This document shows, in pieces, positions 1 through 44,371 of a stretch of DNA of 64,000 bases. The notes below the pieces were generated by a model that worked only from the letters and a program-made list of their open reading frames with translations, was not told the DNA's origin and did no database searches. The first letter of the stretch is position 1. Each line of letters starts with the position of its first letter. Source of the DNA: Cytophagales bacterium (GTDB lineage Bacteria > Bacteroidota > Bacteroidia > Cytophagales > Flammeovirgaceae); the NCBI GenBank assembly GCA_025056215.1, contig JANWWC010000003.1, positions 248,001 through 312,000 of the forward strand, written 5' to 3'. The position numbers and the translations under genes were made by a program.

Positions 1-2186
1 CGCAACTGCCTATCCACGCGCCTTGATTCATGTCTTTCTGTTCCGATGATTGCCAAGCCTCCCGCTTTTTTGGCATCCGGGTGCAACTTGATATCAGTTC
101 CGCGCCCAGCCATATTTGTAGCAATTGTGACAGCAGATGGCTGTCCGGCGCGTGCTACAATTTCAGCCTCGCGCGCATGGTGCTTTGCATTTAAGACTTC
201 ATGCTCTATTTTGAGGCGTTGAAGCATGCGACTCAAAATTTCTGAATTTTCGACCGAGGTAGTTCCTACCAACACGGGCCTTCCTTTTTTAATTAAGTCC
301 TGAATCTCTTGTACGACAGCATTGTACTTTTCTCTTACAGTTTTATAAACCTTGTCTTGGTGGTCTATTCGTATGCAAGGCTTATTGGTAGGAATTACAA
401 CCACGTCAAGTTTATAAATATCCCAAAACTCTGTGGCTTCTGTTTCTGCTGTTCCCGTCATACCTGCTAATTTGTGGTACATACGGAAGTAATTTTGAAG
501 CGTAATAGTTGCATAAGTTTGAGTAGCTTCTTCGATTTTAACGCCTTCTTTAGCTTCAATGGCTTGGTGCAATCCATCTGAATAGCGCCTTCCTTCCATG
601 ATGCGCCCTGTTTGCTCGTCTACAATTTTTACTTTTCCATCTATAACCACGTATTCTTTATCGCGCTCGAAAAGCATATATGCTTTCAAAAGTTGATGAA
701 TAGCATGAATGCGATTAGATTTTATAGCGTATTCTTGCAAGATAGCTTCTTTAGCATCTACCTTTTCTTGGTCAGTTTTAGTTTTATCGTTTTCAATCTC
801 GTTAAGGAGAATGGGAATGTTGGGCAAAATAAAGAAATTTTCGTCTTCTCCTGCCTTCGTAATCATCTTAATGCCCTTTTCTGTAATATCGATTGTATTA
901 TGGCGTTCATCGATAGTAAAAAGCAAAGGCTCGTCAGCTTTTGGCATCTCGCGAGCATTATCTTGTAAATAAAAGCTTTCTGTTTTTTGCAAAACTGTTT
1001 TGATGCCAGGTTCACTCAAAAACTTAATAAGTGGCTTATATTTAGGCATTCCGCGATATGCGCGAAACAAAGCAAGCCCTCCTTCTTCATCTTTCAAATT
1101 AGCGGTCAGACGCCTTCTAGCTTCGTTGAGAAAACTATTGACAAGCTTTTTTTGTTCTTCTATCAGATGCACTACGCGGCTCTTAAACATCTGATAAAGC
1201 TCTTCATCCCCTTGTTGAACAGGACCAGAAATAATAAGCGGAGTACGCGCATCATCAATCAGAACAGAGTCTACTTCATCTACCATGGCATAATGTAAGC
1301 GACGTTGCACTACTTCTTCTTTGCTTCTTGCCATGTTATCGCGCAGATAGTCAAAACCAAACTCGTTATTAGTTCCATAAGTAATATCAGCAGCATAAGC
1401 CCTACGACGCTCTTCAGAATTTGGCTGGTATTTATCAATACAATCTACTGTAATACAATGAAACTCCATAAGAGGGCCCATCCATTCACAGTCGCGCCGC
1501 GCTAAGTAATCGTTAACAGTTACAATGTGTACACCTTTCCCAGCCAGAGCGTTTAAATAGGCTGGCAAAGTAGCTACAAGAGTCTTTCCTTCGCCAGTAG
1601 CCATTTCTGCAATTTTTCCTTGGTGCAAAACAATACCTCCAATCAGTTGCACATCGTAATGCACCATATCCCATTTAATAGGGTTGCCTGCTGCTATCCA
1701 TTCATTAAGCCATATTGCTTTTTCCCCTTGAATTTGGACATTGGATTTCTTAGCTGCTATTTGTTTGTCGAACTCTGTAGCTTTTACTTCGAGTTTCCCA
1801 TTTTCTTTGAAACGGCGCGCTGTTTCTTTCACTACTGCGAACGCTTCAGGGAGAACTTGCATCAAAATTTTTTCTAATTCTTTATTTCGTTCTTTCTCCA
1901 AATTGTCGATTGCCTTAAAATGTTTTTCTTTTTCGACGTAGTCCATCTCAAAGTTTTGAGCAACCGCCTGATGATGAGATTGAATTTTGGCATCGATGCT
2001 TGCTAAATGAGCATTGATTTTTTCTTTGAGATGAAAGGTTTTTTGACGCAAATCATCATCGCTAAGGGAATGAAGCGTAGAAAAAATAGCATTGATTTTT
2101 TCTACAATAGGCATGAGTTCCTTTAGGTCTTTTTCTGATTTTGTGCCAAAAATTTTCGTAAGTATCTGACTAATAACACCGAACAT
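1..2186 (-). CDS. secA: Preprotein translocase ATPase SecA (5' part, runs off left edge)
   Basis: SecA is the cytoplasmic ATPase that drives proteins through SecYEG. About 728 N-terminal residues are present; the C-terminus lies beyond base 1. Reading leftward from the ATG at 2186, the Walker A motif MATGEGKT falls near 1600, followed by the conserved VNDYLA. At the edge the second ATPase lobe shows NMAGRGTDI and GTERHESRR. Nothing is broken in frame. Bacteroidota SecA is usually around 1100 residues, so roughly a third is missing from view. The gene is divergent from rfaE2, with a 177-bp shared upstream region. The family assignment is certain; only the end is unknown. Confidence 0.97.
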
Positions 2187-2363: not shown

Positions 2364-2849
2364 ATGTCAAACACGGCAAAAAAAATCTTTCCAAATACAA
2401 CAGCATTAGCCGAACAAGTTCGCATTTGGCAAGCGGAAGGCAAAAAAGTAGTATTTACAAACGGCTGCTTTGATATTCTTCATTTAGGGCATGTAGATTA
2501 CTTAGAAAAAGCCGCTCAACTTGGAAACAAACTCGTAGTAGGCGTTAATACCGATGCCTCTGTAAAAAAGTTGAAAGGAAATCATAGACCTATCAATAAT
2601 GAATATGCCAGATGTCGCGTGTTAGCAGCTTTAGCCTTCACCGATGCTATTATCTTGTTTGACGAAGATACTCCTTTGCAACTCATTCAAACGCTACTAC
2701 CCGACGTTTTAGTAAAGGGAGCTGACTACAAAGTAGAAAATATTGTAGGCGCCGATGTGGTGTTATCTCGTGGAGGAGAAGTCAAAACCATCGAATTTGT
2801 AGAGGGTTATTCTACTACTAACATAATCGCCAAAATGAAAACACCATGA
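2364..2849 (+). CDS. rfaE2: D-glycero-beta-D-manno-heptose 1-phosphate adenylyltransferase (RfaE domain II)
   Basis: This single-domain nucleotidyltransferase (161 aa) would make ADP-heptose from heptose-1-phosphate for lipopolysaccharide core. The motif [13 protein letters not shown] holds the HxGH-type nucleotide-binding site, and the C-terminal [12 protein letters not shown] is typical of RfaE2. The kinase half (RfaE1) is not fused and is not in the window. I chose ATG 2364; an in-frame TTG at 2307 would add 19 unconserved residues. The stop overlaps the tsaB start (ATGA), so translation is probably coupled. A weak promoter-like AATATTTG ends at 2295. A generic glycerol-3-phosphate cytidylyltransferase-like enzyme is the main alternative, but length and motifs favour RfaE2. 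Confidence 0.88.
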
Positions 2850-3529
2850 TTTTAAGTATTGAAACAGCCACAAGGCAACAATGCTCCGTGGCACTACATG
2901 ATACATCGGGTACACTAAAATTTGAACGCATCTTTCTGCAACCCGATCAACATTTAGAAGCTTTATCGCAAGGACTGGAAGAAATATTTTCTTTACCTTC
3001 TGATCTTCGTAAAATCCAGGCAGTGGCAGTTTCAGCGGGTCCAGGGTCTTACACAGGCTTGCGAATCGGTGTTTCTATGGCAAAAGCATTGGCTTATAGC
3101 CTTCAATGTCCGTTAATTGCGGTAAATACGCTGTTCGCATTAGCTCAAGAAGAATTTTTCTTAGAAAGTCACAAAAATAAAAAATTGATATGCCCCATGA
3201 TAGATGCAAGGCGCAACGAAGTATATACAATGATAGTGGATTCGCAAGGAAATGAAATCCTACCTATGCAGACGCACATTCTTACAAAAGATTCTTTTTC
3301 AAGTTTATTAGATTCAAACACCATGATTTTTATCGGAAATGGAGCAGAAAAAGCACAAAGAATTCTTTATGCTCCAACAGCTATTTTTAAACCATTTGTT
3401 TATCCATTAGCACGCCAAGTAGGTAGACGCGCCGTTCAACTCTTTCATGAAAAAAAGTTTGTAGACGTGGCTTATTTTGAGCCTTATTACTTGAAAGATT
3501 TTATCGGAAAGAAATTGCAAAATACATGA
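2846..3529 (+). CDS. tsaB: tRNA threonylcarbamoyladenosine biosynthesis protein TsaB
   Basis: TsaB (227 aa) is the non-catalytic partner of TsaD in the t6A37 modification of ANN-decoding tRNAs. The N-terminal ILSIETAT and the central [13 protein letters not shown] are the ASKHA-fold signatures of the TsaB branch; the metal-binding histidines of TsaD are absent, as expected. It overlaps rfaE2 upstream and murG downstream by 4 bp each (ATGA), which makes a tightly coupled three-gene cassette. tsaD and tsaE are not in this window. Nothing unusual in length or sequence. Confidence 0.93.
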
Positions 3530-4623
3530 AAAAAATCATTATAAGTGGCGGAGGCACAGGCGGGCACGTTTATCCTGCTATTGCTATTGCAGATGCTCTC
3601 AAACAAATCGAACCAGATATTCAAATTTTATTTGTAGGAGCAGAAGGAAAAATGGAAATGGAGAAGGTGCCACAAGCCGGTTATCGAATCATCGGCTTGC
3701 CGATTAGTGGATTTCAGCGTCAGCAAATGTGGAAAAATGTTTCTTTCCCTTTCAGATTGATAAAGAGTTTATATCAATCATGGCAAATTATTAATGATTT
3801 TTGCCCAAATGTAGTAGTAGGAGTAGGCGGTTATGCTAGTGGCGCCATTTTACAAGTAGCTGTTTGGCGAAAAATTCCTACACTTATTCAAGAACAAAAT
3901 GGATACGCAGGTTTTACTAACAAAATTTTAGCTCCTCAAGTTCAAAAAATTTGTGTGGCTTATCCAGATATGGGAAAATACTTTCCTAAAGAAAAAATCG
4001 TTTTTACGGGTAATCCAGTTCGTCAGAAAATTGCACAAAATCAAATTTCACATCAACAAGCCTGCGCGTTCTGGGGATTTTCCCCTCAAAAAAAGACATT
4101 ATTAGTTTTAGGAGGCAGTTTAGGTGCCAAGACTATTAACCAAAGCATTCTAAAAGGACTTTTTGCATTTGAACAACACTCTGTACAACTCTTATGGCAA
4201 ACAGGAAAAAATTATTACGATAACATCTTACAGAATATAGCTCCAGAACATAGAAATTCAACGCACATCAAAATTCTTCCTTTCATTACTGAAATGGATT
4301 TTGCTTACAAGGCTGCAGATGTAGTGATTTCGCGTGCAGGCGCCCTAAGTATATCAGAACTCTGCTTAGCAGGAAAACCTTGTATTTTAGTTCCTTCGCC
4401 CAATGTAGCAGAAGACCACCAAACTAAAAATGCAATGGCTTTAGTTCAAAAAGAGGCTGCTATTATGGTTAAAGACTCAGAGGCTGATTCTACATTAGTA
4501 AACACTGCTCTTCAACTATTATCTGATTCGGCTACTCAACAAAAACTTTCTTCTCATATTTCAGCATTTGCTAAGCCCGAGGCTGCTAGGAATATTGCGC
4601 AAGAAATCTTAAAATTATGTTAG
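3526..4623 (+). CDS. murG: UDP-GlcNAc:undecaprenyl-pyrophosphoryl-MurNAc-pentapeptide N-acetylglucosaminyltransferase MurG
   Basis: MurG (365 aa) transfers GlcNAc to lipid I to make lipid II on the cytoplasmic face of the inner membrane. The N-terminal glycine loop SGGGTGGHVYPA (about residues 7-18), the second loop GGSLGAKTIN (about 194-203) and the acceptor/donor segment VISRAGALSISEL (about 265-277) identify it. It is normally found in a division/cell-wall cluster; here it instead ends a coupled cassette after rfaE2 and tsaB, linking peptidoglycan and LPS precursor genes. The tRNA-Cys promoter begins 7 bp after the stop. Confidence 0.97.
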   Translation: MKKIIISGGGTGGHVYPAIAIADALKQIEPDIQILFVGAEGKMEMEKVPQAGYRIIGLPISGFQRQQMWKNVSFPFRLIKSLYQSWQIINDFCPNVVVGVGGYASGAILQVAVWRKIPTLIQEQNGYAGFTNKILAPQVQKICVAYPDMGKYFPKEKIVFTGNPVRQKIAQNQISHQQACAFWGFSPQKKTLLVLGGSLGAKTINQSILKGLFAFEQHSVQLLWQTGKNYYDNILQNIAPEHRNSTHIKILPFITEMDFAYKAADVVISRAGALSISELCLAGKPCILVPSPNVAEDHQTKNAMALVQKEAAIMVKDSEADSTLVNTALQLLSDSATQQKLSSHISAFAKPEAARNIAQEILKLC

Positions 4624-4629
4624 CACATT

Positions 4630-4661
4630 TTTGGAATTACAAAAGAATTAAATCATCTTTG
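4630..4661 (+). promoter_or_regulatory. Promoter of tRNA-Cys
   Basis: TTTG at 4630-4633, a 20-bp spacer and CATCTTTG at 4654-4661 match the Bacteroidota vegetative consensus (TTTG, 19-20 bp, TAnnTTTG) at 11 of 12 informative bases or better. The tRNA begins at 4674, the expected distance. It lies just after the murG stop. Confidence 0.7.
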
Positions 4662-4673
4662 TAGGCTGTAAAA

Positions 4674-4744
4674 GGTCTTGTGGCCGAGAGGCTAGGCAGA
4701 GCTCTGCAAAAGCTTCCACAGCGGTTCGAATCCGCTCAAGACCT
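4674..4744 (+). tRNA. tRNA-Cys (anticodon GCA)
   Basis: The acceptor arms GGTCTTG (4674-4680) and CAAGACC (4737-4743) pair perfectly. The anticodon stem 4699-4703/4711-4715 encloses the loop CTGCAAA, with anticodon GCA at 4706-4708. The T-loop GGTTCGAATCC is present and the discriminator is U (4744), the cysteine identity base. Length is 71 nt and the CCA end is not encoded. Confidence 0.96.
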
Positions 4745-4885
4745 CAACAAAGCATAACTAAAGTAGCTGCATTTCTCTTAAAAAAATCATGGATTCCTAC
4801 TAAAAAATTTGCAAAATTTATTATTTTGCATTTACTTTTCATGCAAACTAACTTAACAACTATTAGGTTTAAATCCTTTATTAGC

Positions 4886-5458
4886 ATGCAATACAAAATT
4901 AAACTCAAAAATTCAGACGACTATGTAATTTTGTCTGATGATGCTTATCATTTTATAGAGCGAAACGAATATTACAAATCAATTGATTTCTTGAACAATC
5001 TTCGCAAGCATTCGAGTGGTTATGTATTTTATCAACGGAATTATCCGCGCAATGACGGCTCTTACAAGAACGTAACAATTTATCTTCACAAGTTGATTGC
5101 AGAAAAATTTGTACCCAAACCCAAAGATACTACTAAAAGGCTCTTTGTTCGTTTTAAAAATGGCAATCCTTTAGATAATCGAACAAAGAATTTAGAATGG
5201 ACTACTATGTCCGAATTGCGCAGGCAACAAAAAAGACATCATAATAAAACAGGCTACAGAGGGGTCGTGCAAGTTAGCAAGAACTCGTATCGAGCGGTGC
5301 TCTATACTAGCACAGAAAGGTTTGATTTAGGTCTTTTCCGCACAGCAGAGGAAGCTGCAAGGGCTTATAATCAAAAATCTCTCGAACTTTTTGGAAATAC
5401 CAAAAGCCTCAACAAATTTTACACCTCTGAAGATGAACAATCTGCAGCTAAAGTTTAA
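4886..5458 (+). CDS. AP2-domain protein with a degenerate HNH region
   Basis: This 190-residue protein joins an N-terminal part resembling HNH homing-endonuclease proteins (residues 1-110) to a C-terminal AP2/ERF DNA-binding domain (about 121-177). The AP2 part shows GYRGVV, RFDLGLF and TAEEAARAYN. In the HNH part, H68 of the LHKLIAEKF motif and the DNRTKNLEW end are kept, but the usual NHxDG segment reads RFKNG (from R89), so the catalytic histidine and its neighbours are lost. I infer a DNA-binding regulator or remnant rather than an active nuclease. Start ATG 4886 gives the family-like beginning MQYKIKLKNSDD; ATG 4841 and TTG 4826 are in-frame alternatives. It stands alone after tRNA-Cys, a typical landing place for mobile genes. 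Confidence 0.8.
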   Translation: MQYKIKLKNSDDYVILSDDAYHFIERNEYYKSIDFLNNLRKHSSGYVFYQRNYPRNDGSYKNVTIYLHKLIAEKFVPKPKDTTKRLFVRFKNGNPLDNRTKNLEWTTMSELRRQQKRHHNKTGYRGVVQVSKNSYRAVLYTSTERFDLGLFRTAEEAARAYNQKSLELFGNTKSLNKFYTSEDEQSAAKV

Positions 5459-5478
5459 AACCTTAAATGCATAAAAAT

Positions 5479-5577
5479 ATGAGCATGGAAACAGCAGCGT
5501 ACATCTTTTTTGTTGTACTGCTAACAGCTTCTTTTTTAATTGGCGCTTATTTGGCAAAATATGAAGACCAACGCTAG
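5479..5577 (+). CDS. Small single-span membrane protein (32 aa)
   Basis: A short reading frame encodes MSMETAAYIFFVVLL followed by more hydrophobic residues and the charged end AKYEDQR. It has a short N-terminus, one membrane span of about 22 residues (AAYIFF to AYLA) and a charged tail. An in-frame ATG at 5467 would add four residues. It lies 20 bp after the AP2 gene and is followed 14 bp later by a strong hairpin terminator, which supports it being the last gene of a transcript. I do not recognise the family; size and layout resemble small accessory subunits of membrane complexes, but no function can be assigned. Confidence 0.55.
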   Translation: MSMETAAYIFFVVLLTASFLIGAYLAKYEDQR

Positions 5578-5591
5578 GAACTTTCTCAAGT

Positions 5592-5623
5592 AAGTTGTCT
5601 GTGTGATATCAGGCAACTTTTTT
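5592..5623 (+). terminator. Rho-independent terminator directly before coaD
   Basis: A 10-bp stem (5592-5601 with 5610-5619, one G-U pair), an 8-nt loop and a run of T to 5623. It closes the AP2/small-protein transcript but sits only 7-13 bp ahead of the coaD start codon. Confidence 0.8.
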
Positions 5624-5636
5624 AATACAAATGATT

Positions 5637-6086
5637 ATGAAAATTGCCATCTTTCCAGGTACGTTCGATCCTTTTACTCGCGGACACGAAGATATAGCGC
5701 GAAGAGGGGCTAAAATGTTTGACTACTTAATCATTGGCATTGGTCATAACAGCCAAAAGAAGCGTTATTTTCCTGTAGAATTAATGATAGAAAAAATATC
5801 AGAAGCCCTTTCAGACCTTCCTAATGTAAGCGTTAAGGCGTATGATTTGCTCACAGCCGAGTTCGCAAGAAAAAATCAGGCTACTTATATCTTGCGAGGA
5901 TTGCGAAACACAACCGATTTTGAATATGAAAACAGTATTGCACAAGCCAACAAACAAATTTATCCAGAATTAGAAACCGTCTTTTTGATTACATCTCCTC
6001 CTTACGCACACATTAGCTCTACTATTACGAGAGAAATTTACAAGTATGGAAAATCTATTTCTGAGTTTGTTCCGTATTCGTTATAA
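5637..6086 (+). CDS. coaD: Phosphopantetheine adenylyltransferase CoaD
   Basis: CoaD (149 aa) catalyses the fourth step of coenzyme A synthesis, adenylating 4'-phosphopantetheine. The beginning MKIAIFPGTFDPFTRGHED contains the T/HxGH nucleotidyltransferase motif, and the C-terminal ISSTITREI carries the second conserved ATP-binding segment. Length is normal. ATG 5637 gives the standard family start; ATG 5631 would add two residues. A terminator ends 13 bp upstream, so there is no room for a promoter between terminator and gene: coaD must depend on read-through or on a promoter inside the upstream small ORF. It is followed by an OmpH-like gene after 11 bp. Confidence 0.96.
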   Translation: MKIAIFPGTFDPFTRGHEDIARRGAKMFDYLIIGIGHNSQKKRYFPVELMIEKISEALSDLPNVSVKAYDLLTAEFARKNQATYILRGLRNTTDFEYENSIAQANKQIYPELETVFLITSPPYAHISSTITREIYKYGKSISEFVPYSL

Positions 6087-6097
6087 ATCTCATTCAC

Positions 6098-6724
6098 ATG
6101 ACAAAATCAAACATCTTTTTAGTTATCGCAGTGGCTATTTCACTTATGATTTCGTTGTTTTCTGTTCTGAGAACATTTCGAACAGAATCTCATCAGAGCC
6201 CCGCTGTTTCTTCTTGGAGAGCTGACACGCTTACTTCTTCAAAACCCATTCGAATTGCGTACATTATTCCTGATAGCATTTTAAAAAATTACGTTTACTA
6301 TCAAGAGATTTCTAAACAATTTGAGAGCAAAAGATCTATAGCAGAAAGAGAGTTTGAAAAGAAAGCGCGAACGCTTCAAAGCGAAATGCAAATGTTTCAA
6401 CAAAAAGCACAAGCAGGTTTGCTCTCTCAAAACGAAATGCGCGCTGGTGAAGAGCGTCTTCTTAAACAAGAAAGAGAACTGCAAGAATACAATCAAACCG
6501 AAACAGAAAAACTTATGCGAGAAGAAAAAGAACTCACCGAAAAACTTTACAATCGCGTATCTGATTACATTAAAAAGTACAATGATACTGCGCAATACGA
6601 TATCATTTTAAATTATGTACCTGGTACAACTATATGGTTCGCAAATTCGATGTATGACATTACTCATCAAATCGTAGAAGGCTTAAACCAAGCATACCAA
6701 CTTGAAAAAGAAGGAAAAAAATAA
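6098..6724 (+). CDS. OmpH/Skp-family periplasmic chaperone-like protein
   Basis: A 208-residue protein with an N-terminal membrane span or uncleaved signal (about residues 5-24), then a beta strand IRIAYIIPDSIL, a long charged coiled coil (about 70-155, rich in Glu/Lys/Gln) and a C-terminal strand region with YDIILNY. This order is that of OmpH/Skp proteins, trimeric jellyfish-like chaperones that hold unfolded outer-membrane proteins. It overlaps no neighbour but is 11 bp after coaD and 3 bp before the WD40 gene, so the three are probably co-transcribed. Sequence conservation is weak in this family; the coiled coil could inflate similarity. Confidence 0.8.
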   Translation: MTKSNIFLVIAVAISLMISLFSVLRTFRTESHQSPAVSSWRADTLTSSKPIRIAYIIPDSILKNYVYYQEISKQFESKRSIAEREFEKKARTLQSEMQMFQQKAQAGLLSQNEMRAGEERLLKQERELQEYNQTETEKLMREEKELTEKLYNRVSDYIKKYNDTAQYDIILNYVPGTTIWFANSMYDITHQIVEGLNQAYQLEKEGKK

Positions 6725-6727
6725 ACC

Positions 6728-7651
6728 ATGATTAAAACCCCTTCAGTACAAAAAATAGCTTCTTTTACTGGACATCGAGATGCTATCTACGCACTCTCTT
6801 ATGGAGGTAATCATTTTTTTTATACGGCAGGCTCTGATGGAATGGTCGTTCGTTGGAATGTTTTAGAACCAGAAAAAGGCTTTTTAGTTGCTAAAGTTCC
6901 CAACACTGTATACGCTCTTCATTGCGATATTTCTCGAAAATGGCTTATCATAGGCCAAAACTTCGATGGAGTTCATTTAATTTCTCTTGAAACAGGAAAA
7001 GAAATTGGTTCTATTCATTTGGAAAATGCACCTTTTTTTGAGATTCTGACAGTGAAAAATTTTGTACTTGTCGCCTCAGGAAGTGGAAAACTATTTGTGA
7101 TTGACCTAAAAACAGGCAGTATTGCTGGTAAGATTCCACTTTCCGATGCATCTTTGCGCACGATAGCTTATAATGCTGTAGATGATGAAATCGCTATCGG
7201 AGGTTCAGACCACAAAATTAGAATTTTAGACCCAAAATTTTCTATCAAACAAGAAATAGAGGCACATACTAATTCTGTTTTTTCTTTATGCTATTCTCCT
7301 CATGATCAGACACTTTGGAGTGGAAGTCGGGACGCTCATTTGAAAGCATGGAAAAAAGATTCTCAAACGTATGTGCTGCTATACGATATAGTGGCCCATA
7401 TGTTTACTATTAATTATATTGCTTTTTCTCCCTCTGGAAAACATTTTGCTACTTGTAGCAAAGATAAATCTATTAAGCTGTGGAATAGCCAGTCGGGCAA
7501 ACTGCTCAAAGTAATCGACAAGTCGCGCCATGCCGGACACGGTACTTCTGTAAATAAATTATGCTGGCTTAACGAATCTCAACTCATCTCTTGCAGCGAC
7601 GATAAGACTGCATCCTTGTGGCAAATCACATGGGTAGAAGAAAGCCAGTAA
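6728..7651 (+). CDS. WD40-repeat protein
   Basis: A 307-residue protein made almost wholly of WD40 repeats: FTGHRDAIYAL...VVRWN, AHTNSVFSLCYS...LKAWK, YIAFSPSGKHFAT...IKLWN and SVNKLCW...ASLWQ are clear, with about three more divergent blades between residues 50 and 165. That suits one seven-bladed propeller. There is no signal peptide or membrane span, so it is probably a cytoplasmic scaffold. It starts 3 bp after the OmpH-like gene. Bacterial WD40 proteins of this size occur in Bacteroidota but the partner is not identifiable from the sequence. Confidence 0.88.
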   Translation: MIKTPSVQKIASFTGHRDAIYALSYGGNHFFYTAGSDGMVVRWNVLEPEKGFLVAKVPNTVYALHCDISRKWLIIGQNFDGVHLISLETGKEIGSIHLENAPFFEILTVKNFVLVASGSGKLFVIDLKTGSIAGKIPLSDASLRTIAYNAVDDEIAIGGSDHKIRILDPKFSIKQEIEAHTNSVFSLCYSPHDQTLWSGSRDAHLKAWKKDSQTYVLLYDIVAHMFTINYIAFSPSGKHFATCSKDKSIKLWNSQSGKLLKVIDKSRHAGHGTSVNKLCWLNESQLISCSDDKTASLWQITWVEESQ

Positions 7652-7672
7652 AAGAACCTTTCTGATTTTCGA

Positions 7673-7698
7673 TTTTTCGATTTAATTTAATCGAAAAA
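7673..7698. repeat. 10-bp perfect inverted repeat between WD40 gene and uvrC
   Basis: TTTTTCGATT (7673-7682) and its exact complement (7689-7698) flank a 6-nt spacer, 5 bp before the uvrC ATG. There is no T-tract after it, so an operator or an RNA hairpin over the uvrC initiation region is as likely as a terminator. Confidence 0.5.
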
Positions 7699-7703
7699 TA
7701 GCT

Positions 7704-9530
7704 ATGAAAAAAGAACTCAATGAAGTACTCGCTGAAAAAATCAAACTTCTCCCAGAACAACCAGGCGTTTACCGTTTTCTCAACAAAGAGGGGAAAATCA
7801 TCTACATTGGAAAAGCAAAAATTCTGAAAAACCGAGTCTCAAGCTATTTTGTAAACAGATATATAGGCAGAAAGACCCAGAAATTAGTTCAAGAAATCCA
7901 CGATTTAGAGTATACCGTTGTGGAATCGGAATTCGATGCGCTCCTATTAGAAAACAATCTTATCAAAGTACATCAACCCAAATATAACATTTTACTCAAA
8001 GACGATAAAACATACCCTTTTATATGCATTAGCAACGAACGCTACCCGCGCGTATTTCCTACAAGACAACGGCGCGACGATGGAAGTCGCTACTTCGGAC
8101 CTTATGCTAGCGTCAAAATGATGAATGCACTTCTTGAATTATTCCGCCAACTTTATCCTTTGCGCACTTGTCATTACGTACTTTCAGAAGAAAACATTAA
8201 AGCCCGAAAATTTAAGGTATGTTTAGAATATCATATTAAAAATTGCTTAGGACCTTGCGAAGGACTCCAAGACGAAGAAAACTATAACAAAAACATCCAG
8301 CAAATTATTCATATCTTAAAAGGAAACTTAACTGTCGTAAAAAATTTCTTTAAAGAAAAAATGCAAGAGGCTGCAAGCGCCTGGAAGTTTGAAGAAGCAG
8401 AAATCTACAAACAAAAACTTGAACTCGTCAGTCGCTACCAAGAGAAATCATTGGTAGCAAATCCAGAAATCCAAGATTTAGAAGTTTATACCATCTTAAA
8501 AGAAGATGAAAGCGATACAGCTTATGTCAATTTTATAAAAATCACGAATGGTTGCATTATACAAACCGAATCAGTAGAAATTTGTACAAAACTAGACGAA
8601 ACTGCTGAAGAAATTTTGGGATTTGCCATTACAGATTTTCGCAAAAAATTTCAAACAGCTGCTCCCAAAGTGATTGTCAATATTCAACCCGACATACATT
8701 TGCCTAATACAGAAATTGTTGTTCCGAAAGTCGGTGATATGCGCAAGTTAGTAGAACTTTCTATTCGAAATGCAACTTACTTCAAAAAGGAACGCGAAAG
8801 CGCAAAAATAGAAACCGCTCTCAAGCGCCATAAAAATACACCATTGCTACAACTCAAAGCAGATTTAAATCTCAAAGAGTTGCCTCGCCATATCGAATGC
8901 TTCGACAACTCCAACCTTCAAGGAACAAACGCTGTAGCAGCTATGGTATGTTTTAAAGACGGAAAACCTTCTAAACGCGACTACCGACATTTTACCATCA
9001 AAACAGTAGAAGGTCCTAACGATTTCGATTCAATGTACGAGATAGTGTATAGACGTTATAAGCGCCTTCTCGATGAAGGTCAAGAGCTTCCTCAATTAGT
9101 TGTTATCGACGGTGGGAAGGGACAACTGAACGCTGCTGTAAGAGCACTTCAAGATTTGAACATTTCGGAAAAAATAGCAATCATAGGAATTGCAAAACGA
9201 TTAGAAGAAATTTTTTTCCCTGGAGATAGCGAACCCCTCCAACTCAACCGCAAATCTCGCTCATTGGTATTACTTCAAAAAATTCGAGATGAAGCACACC
9301 GTTTTGGAGTTATACACCACCGAAACAAAAGAAGCAAAGCCGCTCTTCATTCCGAACTCGATGAAATCAAAGGCATCGGAGAGAAAACAAAACAAGTACT
9401 TTTGCTTCATTTCAAATCTGTTTCGAAGATCCGAGAAGCCACGCGAACCGAATTAATACAGCTCATCGGAGAGAAAAAAGCCGATATCCTTATTCGTTAT
9501 TTTTCACAACAAAATTCAGAACGGCCTTAA
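7704..9530 (+). CDS. uvrC: Excinuclease ABC subunit C
   Basis: UvrC (608 aa) makes both incisions in nucleotide excision repair within the UvrBC-DNA complex. Domains in order: GIY-YIG nuclease (PGVYRF and IIYIGKAK, about residues 20-95), a cysteine-bearing linker (CLEYHIKNCLGPCEG), UvrB-interacting UVR helix (about 205-240), RNase H-like C-nuclease (IECFDNSNLQG; VVIDGGKGQL) and a tandem helix-hairpin-helix (IKGIGEKTK; LIGEKKAD). Length is normal. Its stop codon TAA (9528-9530) overlaps the stop of the convergent glycosyltransferase gene, so no terminator separates them. Confidence 0.98.
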   Translation: MKKELNEVLAEKIKLLPEQPGVYRFLNKEGKIIYIGKAKILKNRVSSYFVNRYIGRKTQKLVQEIHDLEYTVVESEFDALLLENNLIKVHQPKYNILLKDDKTYPFICISNERYPRVFPTRQRRDDGSRYFGPYASVKMMNALLELFRQLYPLRTCHYVLSEENIKARKFKVCLEYHIKNCLGPCEGLQDEENYNKNIQQIIHILKGNLTVVKNFFKEKMQEAASAWKFEEAEIYKQKLELVSRYQEKSLVANPEIQDLEVYTILKEDESDTAYVNFIKITNGCIIQTESVEICTKLDETAEEILGFAITDFRKKFQTAAPKVIVNIQPDIHLPNTEIVVPKVGDMRKLVELSIRNATYFKKERESAKIETALKRHKNTPLLQLKADLNLKELPRHIECFDNSNLQGTNAVAAMVCFKDGKPSKRDYRHFTIKTVEGPNDFDSMYEIVYRRYKRLLDEGQELPQLVVIDGGKGQLNAAVRALQDLNISEKIAIIGIAKRLEEIFFPGDSEPLQLNRKSRSLVLLQKIRDEAHRFGVIHHRNKRSKAALHSELDEIKGIGEKTKQVLLLHFKSVSKIREATRTELIQLIGEKKADILIRYFSQQNSERP

Positions 9531-33415: not shown

Positions 33416-36001
33416 ATGACTTTTACACTTGATACTACGCACTCAAATGCTCTTTTAATAGGCGCCTCAGAGTTTCCTAAAGACGCAGAACTCGCCCCTA
33501 TGCCTTTAGTTCATGAACTATTTTGCAAGTTGTATGAGCTAATTACAGACCCTAGCATGTTCAAAATTCCAAAAGAGCAAGTAAATACAATTTTAAACCC
33601 ACAGGACAACACTACCCTAAAAGAACAAATAGTAAGCACTGCAGAAAAGACATTCGGCGTATTCTTTTGTTTTATAGCTACCCATTTCGTCAATCGAAAA
33701 GGACAATATTATATTGCAACTAATCATTCATCAAAACAACAAATCCATGTAAACGGGATTGCTCTGGCTGAGCTCTTTGAAATGGTGCGAGAATCGCCCG
33801 CCGTGTTAAAGATTTTTGTAATTGATGCTCACTACACTAAACTTTCTTCTGATGCATTTTCAGAGTCAGACGTCGAAGTACTTCGTTCAGTTATCGAGGA
33901 CGCAGAAAAAGACGTCTCAGGATTAGTAGTTATTTTGTCGAATCCAATCAATCAGCCACAAGAATTGCGACAAACACTCCTTCAGTCTTTTCTCGGTGTC
34001 ATGGAGCAAGGTATTAAAGTAGAAGAAGAATTTCTAAGTATCAATCAAATTTATGATGCAATTCTTGATAGAACCGGAAAACAAAATCTAGCGCTACCAC
34101 TTAGAAATAAAAAAACATTAGTGAGCGACAAAAAAATTACCTATAACCGAAATTATATCACTTTCAAGAAATTAGTAGAAGAAGCAGAAAGCCTTTTCCA
34201 AAAAGAAGATTACGAAGCCGCGTTAGAAAAATATCAAGAGGCTTCTCGCTTATTTCATGGAAACCCTCTTGTGAAAGATAAGATTGAATTTATTAAGCTT
34301 TATCAAGAGGCAGAACATTTATACGAAGCTCAAGCTTACGAACAGTCTTTCAAACTTTACGAAGATGCGCTCCGTTTCTTTCACTCCGAAACTATTAACA
34401 AAAAACTATGGAGCAGCAAAGAGCGCTTAGCAGATATCTACTACGGACAAGAAAACTTTGAAGCTGCTCGTCAGCTTTACGAAGAACTTCTCCATCATCA
34501 ACCTGATAACGCTGTTTTTTCTGTACGTTTCCGCAAATGCAACGATGAAATTCAATTTTTTGATTTGGTAGATGAAGCCGATAAGTACTACTTTGAAGAC
34601 AATTTCGAAAAAGCCTATGAGACATACAAAAAAGCTCTCCAAATTAAATACGACCACAAGACTCAAAGACGAAAATTAGAATGCGAACGCTTCTTGGAGC
34701 GAGAAAAAATTTTACGTGAAAAAATTGCTGATGCCATTAAACGAGAAATAGAAGAAAAATATAAAGCTGAACTAGCGGAAAAGCATCAAACTGCTAGCCT
34801 TCAAAAACATAAACAAGAGGATATAGAACAAATCTCAGCGCGAATTGCAGAAGAACTCAATGCCAAATACGAAGAAACTCTTTGGACAAGAATTTCTATT
34901 CGAAACGATATAGAATCGTATAAACTCTATTTGGATATTTTTCCACAAGGCATCCACAGTCAAAAAGCTAAGCAAAGAATTTCAGAACTTGAACAAATTA
35001 AATCTTCTTCCTCACAACAAAATACTCCTAACGAGCCTTCTAACGTTAGAATTCACGTAGACCCTGCTATCATCAATCAACCTAGTACTTCCATTTCTAA
35101 GCATGCGCCTGCTATGCAACGCATTAAGCTATCTGAACAACGCAAAGTAACAGAATCGGCGGGCGAAGGAGTAGAACAACTACCAGAACTCCCTGAGAAT
35201 ATGCTGTCCAGTGATGCTACTCTTTCAAATGTAAATGTAGCTGAAAAATCAGCTTCAGGAACTTCTATTGCCGATTCTTTATTACAAACTGCTGCAGAGA
35301 TTGAATCAAATTCGGCGACTCCCTCTGAACCCATCAAATACTTATTTTCAGTAGAAGATATTATTCCCAAAAAGCAACCTCCAAAATCCACAGAATCTCC
35401 TAAAGTCATTCCAGAAGGCTTCAAACAAAACATGACAGAGGAGGAGCTCTGGCAAACTGCTGTGCGCATAGGAACGGTAGAAGCTTATACTTACTATGTA
35501 GACACTACCAAAGAAGCTTCTCATGTCGTAGATGCTTATTACATGATTAATAAGCTAAATAAAGAAAATAAAACTTCAACAGAAACTTCAGCAGCAGATA
35601 GCGTTTTGCAAGAAATTAGTTCCTTTACTTCTCATCATACACTGAAACCTGAAACTCAAGAAAATCGAGAAAAAGTGCGGCAAGATACTTCCAATGAAAA
35701 ATTAGAGGGTTATACTGCTGCAGATTATGCTTATGAAGATAAACTATGGAAAGAAGCTACAACTGAAAACACTTTGAGCTCATACTACAACTATATCAAC
35801 AACACTGTAATCAAACGATTTTGGCAGGAAGCCAAAGAGCGCATCAGAGAACTAAAAGAAGAAGCAAAAAACAACGAGGAAAAAGACTGGAAGGCCGCCA
35901 AACAAGCTGATACTATAGAAGCTTACCGCGCCTATGTTCGCAAATATCCATTAGGAAATTATTATGCTCAAGCAATGTTTCGGATTAATGAATTAAGTTA
36001 A
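33416..36001 (+). CDS. Pseudo-caspase (C14-like) protein with TPRs and four C-terminal W-repeats
   Basis: This 861-residue soluble protein has a caspase-like N-terminus: NALLIGASEFPKD (strand 1), VFFCFIATHFV with the histidine at H90, and KIFVIDAHYTK where active members read DACHSG. At the cysteine position there is H139 (codon CAC at 33830-33832), so it should be proteolytically dead. Residues about 250-430 hold four TPR-like units, then a Glu/Lys coiled coil (about 435-485). A roughly 40-residue repeat (W..A......Y..Y....G....A..RI.EL) occurs at about 486, 675, 774 and 821; the last ends the protein. No signal peptide. A caspase fold used as a scaffold is my inference. TTG 33407 is a spurious earlier start. 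The next gene starts 3 bp later. Confidence 0.75.
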   Translation: MTFTLDTTHSNALLIGASEFPKDAELAPMPLVHELFCKLYELITDPSMFKIPKEQVNTILNPQDNTTLKEQIVSTAEKTFGVFFCFIATHFVNRKGQYYIATNHSSKQQIHVNGIALAELFEMVRESPAVLKIFVIDAHYTKLSSDAFSESDVEVLRSVIEDAEKDVSGLVVILSNPINQPQELRQTLLQSFLGVMEQGIKVEEEFLSINQIYDAILDRTGKQNLALPLRNKKTLVSDKKITYNRNYITFKKLVEEAESLFQKEDYEAALEKYQEASRLFHGNPLVKDKIEFIKLYQEAEHLYEAQAYEQSFKLYEDALRFFHSETINKKLWSSKERLADIYYGQENFEAARQLYEELLHHQPDNAVFSVRFRKCNDEIQFFDLVDEADKYYFEDNFEKAYETYKKALQIKYDHKTQRRKLECERFLEREKILREKIADAIKREIEEKYKAELAEKHQTASLQKHKQEDIEQISARIAEELNAKYEETLWTRISIRNDIESYKLYLDIFPQGIHSQKAKQRISELEQIKSSSSQQNTPNEPSNVRIHVDPAIINQPSTSISKHAPAMQRIKLSEQRKVTESAGEGVEQLPELPENMLSSDATLSNVNVAEKSASGTSIADSLLQTAAEIESNSATPSEPIKYLFSVEDIIPKKQPPKSTESPKVIPEGFKQNMTEEELWQTAVRIGTVEAYTYYVDTTKEASHVVDAYYMINKLNKENKTSTETSAADSVLQEISSFTSHHTLKPETQENREKVRQDTSNEKLEGYTAADYAYEDKLWKEATTENTLSSYYNYINNTVIKRFWQEAKERIRELKEEAKNNEEKDWKAAKQADTIEAYRAYVRKYPLGNYYAQAMFRINELS

Positions 36002-36004
36002 AAA

Positions 36005-37291
36005 GTGGAAAATTTTTGGAAATTTGTTTTATTGTCAGAATTTCACGTCCGGTACGTAGTAATAGGCTGCACCCTGATAAGCATAGGAACGTCTATTGTA
36101 GGTGTATTTGTTTCTTTGCGCAAGCGAGCTCTTTTAGGAGATGTAGTCTCACATGCTGTATTACCAGGTATATGCTTAGCCTTCTTATGGAAAGAAGAAA
36201 AGAATCCAATATGGCTCGGAATTGGTGCATTTATTTCGGGATGGCTCGCTATTGTATGCACTGATATGATTCGACGTTACTCTAAACTTAAAGAAGATGC
36301 TTCTTTAGCTATAGTGCTTTCTATTTTCTTTGGAGCAGGTATTATGCTACTTACCATGATTCAACAATCTGACAATGCTTCACAAGCAGGATTAGATAGT
36401 TTTTTGTTCGGGAAAGCCGCCTCCATCACTTCTGATGACGTCAAAATATTCGGTGGAATTGCTCTTCTCATCATTATAACTATAACATTGCTCTACAAAC
36501 ATTTTCAAATTTTGTGCTTTGATGAAATGTTTGCCAAAGCTATCGGATTACCTGTGAAAAAAATGGAATTATTATTGAGTACACTTGCGGTACTCGCTGT
36601 TGTAAGTGGAATTCAATCTGTGGGAGTGGTGCTTATTTCGGGAATGCTTATTATTCCTTATGCAGCGGCTCGTTTTTGGACAAATCGACTCTCAGTACTT
36701 TTGCTCATTGCAGCGCTTATTGGAAGTTTATCCTCCATAGGAGGTGTGTATGTATCTTACACCATTTCCCGTATGCCTACAGGGCCTTGGATCATTGTTA
36801 TAGCATTTTTTTTCGCATTTATATCCTTCATTTTTGGTACAAACAAAGGAAAAATTGTTAAGCTGTTGCAAAATTGGCAATATCAAAGAAAAATCCTTGA
36901 CGAGAATATTCTCAAAACATTTTATCAAATCTGCGAGAAGTCGGGCGGGAACATTTCATTTTGCAGCGTAGAAACAATTCTTTCCAAACGAGCCTACTCT
37001 CCTTTAAAACTTCACAACGCATTACAACGCCTATGGAAGCAAGGGTACATCAAACCTGAAAAAAAATGTTGGAAACTTACTCCTGAAGGTTATGAAAAAG
37101 GCAAAAGAATTGTGAAACTCCATCGACTCTGGGAGGTATATCTAATGGAGCATCTGAAACTCAACCCTGAGCATGTCCACAACGACGCTGAACTCATTGA
37201 ACACATTATCACTCCTGAACTTGAAAAAGAACTAGAAGAAAAATTGCGCTATCCTCAATACGACCCTCACCAATCTCCAATTCCATATTAG
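36005..37291 (+). CDS. ABC-3 metal permease fused to an MntR/DtxR-like domain
   Basis: The first 280 residues are a zinc/manganese/iron ABC permease with eight or nine spans and the signature LLGDVVSHAVLPGICLA. Residues about 295-428 match a DtxR/MntR regulator: a winged-helix-like part (SPLKLHNALQRLWKQGYI) and a metal-binding dimerisation part with H373, E377, H392, E396, E399 and H400, spaced exactly like DtxR H79, E83, H98, C102, E105 and H106. Glutamate at the C102 position is the MntR arrangement. Fusion suggests the transporter senses its own substrate. Start GTG 36005 is 3 bp after the caspase-like gene. No ATPase or binding protein is nearby, so partners are encoded elsewhere. Similar fusions are known in Bacteroidota databases as metal ABC permeases. 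Confidence 0.88.
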   Translation: MENFWKFVLLSEFHVRYVVIGCTLISIGTSIVGVFVSLRKRALLGDVVSHAVLPGICLAFLWKEEKNPIWLGIGAFISGWLAIVCTDMIRRYSKLKEDASLAIVLSIFFGAGIMLLTMIQQSDNASQAGLDSFLFGKAASITSDDVKIFGGIALLIIITITLLYKHFQILCFDEMFAKAIGLPVKKMELLLSTLAVLAVVSGIQSVGVVLISGMLIIPYAAARFWTNRLSVLLLIAALIGSLSSIGGVYVSYTISRMPTGPWIIVIAFFFAFISFIFGTNKGKIVKLLQNWQYQRKILDENILKTFYQICEKSGGNISFCSVETILSKRAYSPLKLHNALQRLWKQGYIKPEKKCWKLTPEGYEKGKRIVKLHRLWEVYLMEHLKLNPEHVHNDAELIEHIITPELEKELEEKLRYPQYDPHQSPIPY

Positions 37292-41722: not shown

Positions 41723-44371
41723 ATGATCTCGCTTTCTAAAAAACAATGGAGTATTATTATTTTGTCAATTATTTTTCTTCATATTAGCATAGGAAAGAAC
41801 CCTCCTCCTGCTCTACCTGATTCATTTTTCGATAGTGTTCAAATAGATAAGCTTAATCATCAGGCATATACAGAACTTACATACGGAAACTTAAACATGG
41901 CCAAGCGCCACGCAGAAAAAGCACTCCAACTCGCTGATGAAACTAACTACCTCAGAGGGCAGGCAACGGCTATAGAGCACCTGGGAACAATTTATATGAA
42001 AAATAAAAAATATGAAGAAGCTTTTACCTTCTACTATAACGCCAATACTCTTTGGAAACTAATCGGAAGCAAAATTTCCGAAGTATCTAATTTAGAAAAA
42101 ACTGCTTTCTTGTATATGTCTTTAAATAGTTACAAACGAGCAGCAGACTATTACCAGGAGGCATACGAAATTGTGAAAACTCTTGACGAGCCCGCTATAC
42201 AGGGAAATATTGAGGAATCGTTAGCTTCAATATATAAAAAATTAGGAGAATATGAAAAAGCAGCTACCTATTACCGCTTAGCGATTCAATCTCGCCAACG
42301 CCTCCACATGATGGCAGAAGTGGGGCAACTTTATCGCCAACTTCACCAAATGCAAAGCTTAGCAGGCAACCACGACCACGCAATTGAGGCAGGTAACAAA
42401 GCACTCGATATCTTTACGCAACTTAAAGACACTTCTCAAATTTCTGATGTACTTACAGACATTGGACATTCCTTGACTTCTCTTAAGGAGCACGATAAGG
42501 CGGAAGTTTACTTTGAAAGAGCTTTAGAGCTTCAAGCAAATATTTTGAAAAAAGCTCATAAAAAGGAGGAAAAAATTGCTCGCTTCATACGAATGGGAGA
42601 GATTGCTCATAAAGCGCAAAAATATAAAAAAGCAAGGCAACATTATGAAAGCGCTTACAACCTTATTGGAGAAGAAGGTGACTGCTCTTTATTAGTAGAT
42701 TTGTGCAATAAGTTGGCTTACAATGAATTTGTTGCTAAACATAAAGACGATGCTCTCTCCTATGCAGGAGAAGCTTTTACAATTGGTCAGGAGTGTAACA
42801 AAGTAAGCCGCGAAGCAAAAATGGAAACTTATTTATTGTTATCTGAAATTTATAATATGAGAAATGCTTATAAGAGATCTCAAGAGTGGTATGCTTTTTA
42901 TAACCATAATAAAAACATTATGGAAAAAGAAGCTAATCAGCTACATGAAGAATTGCTAGCATTTGAGCTAAAACTAGAAAAACAAGAAAAGGAATTCAAA
43001 CTTGAAGCAATGAACCGTCAGAATGAAGAACTCAAGTATCAACAAGTAAAACTTGAAAATGATAAAAAACAACAAGAACTCATCCTTCGCGAACAAGAAT
43101 TAGCAATCTTGCGAAAAAACCAAGAGCTACAAGCGATTGCTCTTGAAAAGCAGAAACTTGAAGAACAACGTGCTAAACGCGAACTTCTTCTTATTAAGCA
43201 ACGCATAGAAGCTGAAGAAAAAGACAAACAACTAGCACTCTTAGAAAAAGATAGAGCAATGAAAGCTCTAGAATTAGAAAAGCAAAAAGTAAGAGAACGC
43301 TTACGAGAGGATTCTCTTCGCATACTTCAATCTGAGTCCATCATGAAAGAGGAACTTCTTAAAGAAGAACAAAGAACCAAAACATTCAGCTACGCTATTA
43401 TAGGTCTTTTAACGGGATTTTTGGTGTTTGCATTTGTAGCTTATAGAAAAATCCGCAAATCTGAAAAAGAACTAAAAGTTCAGTCAGCAGTTATTCAAGA
43501 AAAAAATGAAGAGCTTACTCATACCAATCAAATTCTCTCTCAAACAGCTTTAGAATTAAAAGAATCTCGAAAAGAATTACAACGAAAAAATGATGCGCTT
43601 ACTTCTTCTATCACTTATGCTCAACGAATTCAACGCGTTATTATGCCAACAGAGACAGAATTGTCTTCTATTTTTCCAGAAAGTTTCGTTTTATTTCTTC
43701 CACGCGATATAGTAAGTGGAGATTTTTATTGGCTAAAAAAACGCCGAGAAAGAATTTATATAGCAGTAGCAGATTGCACGGGACATGGTGTTCCAGGGGC
43801 ATTTATGTCACTTATCGGAATAGAAAAACTCGAACAAGCTGTCGATTATGTTAATATTTCCTCTCCTAACTTAATTCTTAATTATTTGAATAAAAGTGTC
43901 AAAAATCTTTTACAACAACGCAATTCTGAACTTCGCGATGGAATGGACATCGCTATTTGCACAATTGATCTTAAAAAGAAAATTTTAGATTTTTCAGGTG
44001 CTCGCGCAGATATTCTTGTTTTCCAAAACAATGAAATGCAAGTCTTAAAAGGTGATAGAAACTCTATTGCAGGACGAGAAACCATCGATGAATTTTATTT
44101 TACTAAGTATTCTTTAAAACTCGATAAGCCTACAACCGTCTACATGTTTACTGACGGCTACCGCGACCAATTTGGAGGAGAACTCAATACTAAGATCGGT
44201 AGTGTGAAATTTAAAGAACTCATCCAAAAAGTTTCTGTGTTGTCTTCTTTTGCTCAACAAAAAGAGGAATTAGAAAGATTCTTTCGAGAATGGAAAGGTA
44301 AAGAAAAACAACTTGACGATGTAACCGTTTTATCATTTAAAATCAATGATTTAATTGACTCCACAATTTAA
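41723..44371 (+). CDS. TPR receptor with coiled coil, membrane span and SpoIIE (PP2C) phosphatase
   Basis: An 882-residue protein in signalling-receptor layout. A signal sequence (about 8-24) leads to a TPR array (about 45-395, at least seven units), a charged coiled coil (about 400-550), one membrane span (555-577), a second coiled coil and a SpoIIE phosphatase (about 630-878). Metal aspartates are kept in SGDFYW, VADCTGHGVPGAF, DGMDIAI and LDDVTVLSF, so it should be active. TPRs are then outside and the phosphatase inside. Such proteins usually act in partner-switching on anti-anti-sigma factors; none is nearby. It stands alone with its own promoter. Confidence 0.9.
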   Translation: MISLSKKQWSIIILSIIFLHISIGKNPPPALPDSFFDSVQIDKLNHQAYTELTYGNLNMAKRHAEKALQLADETNYLRGQATAIEHLGTIYMKNKKYEEAFTFYYNANTLWKLIGSKISEVSNLEKTAFLYMSLNSYKRAADYYQEAYEIVKTLDEPAIQGNIEESLASIYKKLGEYEKAATYYRLAIQSRQRLHMMAEVGQLYRQLHQMQSLAGNHDHAIEAGNKALDIFTQLKDTSQISDVLTDIGHSLTSLKEHDKAEVYFERALELQANILKKAHKKEEKIARFIRMGEIAHKAQKYKKARQHYESAYNLIGEEGDCSLLVDLCNKLAYNEFVAKHKDDALSYAGEAFTIGQECNKVSREAKMETYLLLSEIYNMRNAYKRSQEWYAFYNHNKNIMEKEANQLHEELLAFELKLEKQEKEFKLEAMNRQNEELKYQQVKLENDKKQQELILREQELAILRKNQELQAIALEKQKLEEQRAKRELLLIKQRIEAEEKDKQLALLEKDRAMKALELEKQKVRERLREDSLRILQSESIMKEELLKEEQRTKTFSYAIIGLLTGFLVFAFVAYRKIRKSEKELKVQSAVIQEKNEELTHTNQILSQTALELKESRKELQRKNDALTSSITYAQRIQRVIMPTETELSSIFPESFVLFLPRDIVSGDFYWLKKRRERIYIAVADCTGHGVPGAFMSLIGIEKLEQAVDYVNISSPNLILNYLNKSVKNLLQQRNSELRDGMDIAICTIDLKKKILDFSGARADILVFQNNEMQVLKGDRNSIAGRETIDEFYFTKYSLKLDKPTTVYMFTDGYRDQFGGELNTKIGSVKFKELIQKVSVLSSFAQQKEELERFFREWKGKEKQLDDVTVLSFKINDLIDSTI

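Follow-up and report, generated by a model that had tools for sequence, protein, structure and literature searches.

Within the 64,000-nucleotide stretch of Cytophagales DNA analysed here (the window), the open reading frame at 33416–36001 (plus strand) encodes an 861-amino-acid protein with an N-terminal head predicted to adopt a caspase fold, and with histidine where a caspase has its catalytic cysteine. The protein is probably a cytoplasmic pseudo-caspase scaffold, whose head would bind without cutting and whose repeats would dock a partner conserved in the clade. An earlier note on this DNA had proposed a pseudoprotease adaptor, which remains the best reading because of the predicted fold, the complete absence of the cysteine from the orthologues, an architecture of the binding type and purifying selection in one genus; residues specific to the clade and conservation of the C-terminal repeats point the same way. 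A cytoplasmic location would be in keeping with the N-terminus, where inspection by eye revealed no signal-like stretch. The features of the gene are as follows.

33416..34147, plus strand: predicted pseudo-caspase domain, residues 1–244 (NF047832 at 10–219; AlphaFold2; VIA-align match to 6w8s_C)
33683..33685, plus strand: H90 (CAT), the catalytic-histidine position (codon read)
33824..33826, plus strand: D137, two residues ahead of the lost cysteine (Asp in 21/21 orthologues and 14/14 intact homologues)
33830..33832, plus strand: H139 (CAC) at the catalytic-cysteine position (codon read)
34148..34654, plus strand: TPR region, residues 245–413 (Pfam TPR_2, E=2.2e-8; helix pairs in the model)
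34655..34870, plus strand: long single helix, coiled-coil-like, residues 414–485 (model helix 414–496, pLDDT dropping to about 64)
34871..35002, plus strand: W-repeat 1, residues 486–529 (repeat profile; model helices 499–508 and 515–528)
35003..35401, plus strand: low-confidence linker, residues 530–662 (pLDDT <50 at 530–540 and 545–662)
35438..35569, plus strand: W-repeat 2, residues 675–718 (repeat profile; model)
35570..35701, plus strand: low-confidence linker, residues 719–762 (pLDDT <50)
35735..35866, plus strand: W-repeat 3, residues 774–817 (repeat profile; model)
35876..35998, plus strand: W-repeat 4, residues 821–861, the end of the protein (repeat profile; model; last 90 residues conserved)

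Pfam models applied to the whole protein (E≤1) returned TPR and TPR-like matches only, together with weak ones to SNAP, MIT, BTAD and similar models, and no caspase. The sole NCBIfam family matched is NF047832 (caspase_w_EACC1), which covers residues 10–219 (E=1e-21; 77.4 bits, the curated cut-off being 140) and is present in 13/13 orthologues scanned; PF00656 (E≤0.01) finds the domain in only three of these and misses 10. Nor was a caspase found by sequence among solved structures, the search with residues 1–235 and with profile A2 giving matches only at E=0.4 or worse, so that fold comparison was needed. Residues 1–254, modelled with AlphaFold2 from an alignment of 13 orthologues, gave a pLDDT of 89.3 and a pTM of 0.89. 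The best VIA-align match of this model was Arabidopsis metacaspase 4 (6w8s_C; Z=20.1, rmsd 2.8 over 205 residues, model 9..244), the top Foldseek match was MALT1 (E=2e-9), and many ordinary caspases were also among the structural matches. The model can be aligned with caspases and metacaspases up to residue 244, with late strands at 170–174 and 240–243. When the full-length model was used for the fold search, only caspases and their relatives were among the best 50 matches listed. Residues 1–244 are thus predicted to form a caspase fold, and the comparison with C14 peptidases which the earlier note had suggested returned the fold that it had claimed for the N-terminus.

The set of orthologues comprises 21 full-length proteins, namely the window protein and 20 others (among them those of Flammeovirga, Thermoflexibacter and Bernardetiaceae), 15 of which came from a search of 58 genomes, its own included, and five from a genome-contig scan of 14 loci (five new orthologues, eight already found, and the betaproteobacterial locus L069). 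When 390 genomes of the order were searched with a profile, the same 21 and no additional full-length orthologue were recovered; copies are carried by 13 of the 18 genomes of its own family and by eight genomes of one other family. The comparison set consists of the 14 nearest homologues outside the clade. L034, a distant caspase of the window's own genome with an intact dyad, was excluded from the 14 and included in the tree.

Cysteine is found at position 139 in none of the 21 orthologues, where Glu (6), Asp (4), His (4), Ala (3) and Thr, Tyr, Pro and Ser (one each) occur, and the His-Cys dyad is intact in 14/14 of the homologues outside the clade. Since the loss is shared in this way, His139 is not a sequencing quirk. 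Nine of the 14 intact homologues cluster together in the tree as close relatives and two genomes contribute two each, so that the independent cases are fewer than 14. The loss of the cysteine noted earlier is therefore shared by all full-length orthologues found; the histidine described with it as kept, H90, is indeed present in the window protein and does not hold as a family trait, position 90 being Tyr in 12 orthologues, Thr in four, His in three, and Val and Asp in one each. With histidine in place of the cysteine nucleophile, the protein falls outside the active peptidases of family C14.

One divergent sequence was too far removed to place and was left out of the 21. This is L054 (G007:C66:15000-28000; ORF 3530–7294, a 1,260-residue frame), from the same family as the window, which has W-repeats and a very divergent caspase-like N-terminus, in which Ala and Leu, and no Cys, align with the dyad. 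It could be an orthologue that has evolved fast.

The presence of histidine at both former dyad positions of the window protein, with His at 139 recurring in three other orthologues, brings to mind an enzyme of altered chemistry, in which H90, H139 and their neighbours make up a new site for catalysis or for a metal. However, the residue pair varies: ten combinations of residues 90 and 139 occur in the 21 proteins (YE in six, YD in four, TH in three, YA in two, and HH, HT, HA, TY, DS and VP in one each), and such scatter, which extends to V/P and D/S, fits no shared replacement chemistry. We regard a new active site of this kind as highly improbable. Proteolysis by some different mechanism is a remote possibility.

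Loss of the nucleophile might also mean that the caspase part is a mere relic and that only the TPR and W-repeat part matters. Conservation is lower in the head than in the last repeats. The closest homologue of the window protein is about 30% identical and whole-protein identity to the orthologues is 26–31%; the caspase domain shows 19–29% identity to the window, and the last 90 residues, which over long distances are conserved best, 44–53% to 11 orthologues. Against decay stand the presence of the domain in 21/21 orthologues, ten head positions at which no more than one row deviates, and the pattern of substitution. Within genus g3, represented by nine species (five recorded as Flammeovirga) and not including the window gene, the dead domain has a dN/dS of 0.014–0.156 in 22 of 36 pairs; the remaining 14 were dropped as saturated, and most of the 22 have dS >1. 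The two least saturated pairs gave 0.033 (L045/L043) and 0.014 (L042/L036), and their values over the last 95 residues were 0 and 0.038; in the second pair the repeats thus exceed the head (0.038 vs 0.014), and they are not always under more constraint. Purifying selection acts on the dead domain in Flammeovirga, the one genus measured, and the idea of a decaying relic, very unlikely on these grounds, is largely refuted.

The head has also acquired residues of its own. K22, E70, R94, N113 and E126 are fixed in 21/21 dead proteins and occur in 0/14 intact ones (with a gap at 22 in three of the 14), which suggests a gained role; D137, G199 and N244 are identical in all 35. By their placement along the sequence, K22, R94 and N113 would lie after strands 1 and 3, on the side of the caspase active-site face. 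In the tree, one change separates the dead from the intact rows in 200/200 bootstrap trees; support for the split itself is modest (85/62 and 83/84), and long branches lead to a number of rows, the window's included. The cysteine may have been lost a single time in the clade.

Conservation of D137 raised the matter of a retained metacaspase-type S1 pocket. D137 fits Asp211 of TbMC2, positioned two residues before the catalytic cysteine. The second aspartate of that enzyme, Asp95, is without a clear equivalent in the window protein, and a retained pocket is not claimed.

Behind the head, the TPRs that the earlier note had pointed out were recovered both by Pfam and in the model, its coiled coil corresponds to the long helix of the model, and the four W-repeats were likewise found, the last one ending the protein. 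In the full-length AlphaFold2 model (mean pLDDT 75.4, pTM 0.48) TPR helix pairs run up to residue 413 and the long helix reaches 496; the W units are helical, the two linkers have very low confidence, and the relative placement of the domains is of low confidence as well. Orthologues carry three to five W-repeats each by the repeat profile. This profile was trained partly on the window's own repeats, so that the E-values it gives them are no independent check; outside the training set it detects 12 copies in L053 (E=3.2e-7 to 2.1e-12). In the window's own genome (E≤0.01) it gave three matches, all in the dead-caspase gene, and no second W-repeat protein. Pfam YfiO matches the repeat region of L053 (E=2.3e-15), so the W-repeats are probably TPR-like helical units; YfiO also matches one of 12 orthologue ends (E=0.0089), and in the same scan the end of the window protein matches no TPR-type model.

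The C-terminal repeat, which the earlier note had suggested looking for in other caspase proteins, occurs in L053 and, in similar form, in L069. L053 (G021:C1:4730000-4744000, ORF 5854–8571), from the same order, resembles the window protein in having an N-terminal caspase domain followed by the same repeats. It differs in its intact GHG..DCCHSG motifs, its 12 repeats, its Pfam matches (C14 and YfiO, with no other TPR model) and, by eye, a hydrophobic C-terminal segment, and it appears to be a cousin with an apparently active caspase. L069 (ORF 4867–7593), the betaproteobacterial protein, combines a C14 domain (E=1.3e-29), in which inspection by eye shows GHG and DAC motifs, with nine Sel1 stretches and shares only the repeats with the window protein. 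W-repeats therefore also accompany apparently live caspases, in the case of L069 in another phylum.

If the protein is a scaffold, its parts could be assigned as follows. The caspase-fold head, its nucleophile lost and the former active-site face remodelled, would serve as a peptide- or protein-binding module. The TPR superhelix and the long helix would form an arm that keeps the head at a distance, the disordered linkers would supply reach, and the C-terminal W-repeats, as TPR/YfiO-like helical units, would dock a partner common to the clade.

A dead head might instead act upon live caspases, pairing through its edge strand (beta 6, 240–243) with an active caspase and restraining or activating it in the manner of c-FLIP. 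Such a strand is predicted, and the adjoining N244 is kept in the 21 orthologues and 14 intact homologues. The complex of caspase-8 with c-FLIPL is represented among the fold matches (3h11_B, Z=18.6), as are ordinary caspases. Potential partners are available: PF00656 caspases were counted in 21/21 carrier genomes (1 to 17 matches each, dyads being read in the window's own genome only), none of the 33 matches placed in eight carriers is the dead gene itself, and the five caspases of the window's own genome have His-Cys motifs which are intact by eye. Caspases also occur, however, in 16 of the 21 non-carrier genomes compared (one non-carrier, G007, has the divergent L054), so that co-occurrence says little. 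The dead-domain profile reaches only two of the five caspases in the same genome (E≤0.001), and none of the other proteins of that genome carries W-repeats (E≤0.01). We know of no bacterial dead caspase shown to regulate caspases. In the survey by Klemencic (2019; PMC6426788), pseudo-orthocaspases occurring beside active ones are considered most likely not to be their regulators. Control of active caspases is on this evidence unlikely. In its most developed form the protein would be the bacterial equivalent of c-FLIP: a caspase inactivated a single time, at the base of the clade, which gained a new binding surface (K22, E70, R94, N113, E126) and which recruits and controls active caspases from its TPR/W-repeat scaffold. 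This is more doubtful still.

The genes surrounding the scaffold candidate offer little guidance. Comparison of 21 loci showed that none of the genes adjacent to the window gene recurs beside an orthologue at the 20 others. The 5' neighbour encodes a 780-amino-acid TonB-receptor-like protein with CarboxypepD_reg and Plug domains. On the 3' side (36005–37291) lies the gene of an ABC-3 metal transporter permease with a fused metal-binding domain of the iron-dependent-repressor type; it starts three bases past the dead-caspase stop, so that co-transcription is possible, and it was found beside the orthologue at 0/20 other loci. Promoter and terminator scans gave scores below the shuffled mean. 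A small ORF (87–141 amino acids) is located just upstream at all nine loci of g3 and also in G003, which belongs to another genus; the one copy scanned has no Pfam match. In the second family a divergent gene for a BrkB-like membrane protein precedes the orthologue on the other strand at four g11 loci and at L067, of another genus; PF03631 was detected in the three copies scanned (L049, L065 and L067). Much wider synteny is retained within g3 and within g11, and across the 21 loci the shared neighbours give no functional lead.

Two further genes were recorded in passing. The window itself encodes, at 41723–44371, an 882-amino-acid protein that combines TPRs with a SpoIIE phosphatase domain at its C-terminus; by eye it also has a charged helix of some length and, probably, a membrane segment. 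In G020 (C27:4000-12000), L051 (ORF 2444–4333, minus strand) combines an intact caspase domain with a weak GNAT-like match and leucine-rich repeats; its genome also has a dead-caspase gene.

Membership of an EACC1-type membrane conflict system has in its favour that caspase_w_EACC1 is the one NCBIfam family matched, and that in all orthologues scanned. The score falls well short of the cut-off of that family, the expected short one-helix membrane protein EACC1 is replaced on the 5' side by the TonB-receptor-like protein, and no PADLOC model was matched (E≤1). This is the least probable of the readings considered here. EACC1-associated caspases (NF047832; PMC7159879) are the nearest curated family by sequence over residues 10–219, and the window protein differs from them in its sub-threshold score, its lack of the cysteine and its lack of an EACC1-like neighbour.

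The earlier note had considered a pseudoprotease role as adaptor or sensor not established for bacterial C14 proteins, which is too strong. Putative bacterial metacaspases had an intact dyad in 84% of cases in a 2012 count (PMC3501461), and a substituted dyad was recorded in 858/9,994 bacterial orthocaspases, 10/1,078 in Bacteroidetes, in the 2019 survey (Klemencic 2019, PMC6426788). Some of these ten Bacteroidetes sequences may belong to the present clade. Deletion of the pseudo-orthocaspase SyOC leads to higher tolerance of oxidative stress (PMC7889975). In vWA-MoxR systems about 70% of the caspase domains in the effector position are inactive (PMC7159879), and inactive domains in conflict systems have been proposed to be dominant negatives or peptide binders (PMC7159879; PMC8195603). 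Proteins of this kind are thus already known. A search of open-licence papers, in which subscription journals are mostly missing, gave no report of the clade; within that literature we met no description of the clade itself or its architecture, of a dyad that drifts freely while other residues become newly fixed, or of a domain that PF00656 detects in only three of 13 orthologues and NF047832 in all 13.

Bacterial dead caspase domains have mostly been counted and rarely studied, and counting with the Pfam caspase model would miss many such proteins, as in the 10/13 scanned here. The clade offers a clean natural case, with intact outgroups, perhaps one loss, selection in the genus tested and fixed residues to mutate, and named strains of Flammeovirga and Thermoflexibacter are available for work on it.

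Among known systems the closest in kind are the bacterial pseudo-orthocaspases, with which the window protein has in common a p20-like caspase fold (here as predicted), a substituted His-Cys dyad (His for Cys, His90 retained) and the aspartate two residues before the cysteine position. TPRs are consistently present in the alphaproteobacterial variants with an FS dyad (PMC6426788), a further likeness to the window protein. The clade is set apart from them by its long helix, disordered linkers and W-repeats, by a dyad which is scattered and not replaced by one fixed pair, and by a domain that escapes PF00656 in 10/13 orthologues scanned. Further afield, c-FLIP-L of animals and TbMC4 of trypanosomes (PMC6426788) are likewise dead caspase folds, in their case with a regulatory role, and their domains differ from those of the window protein.
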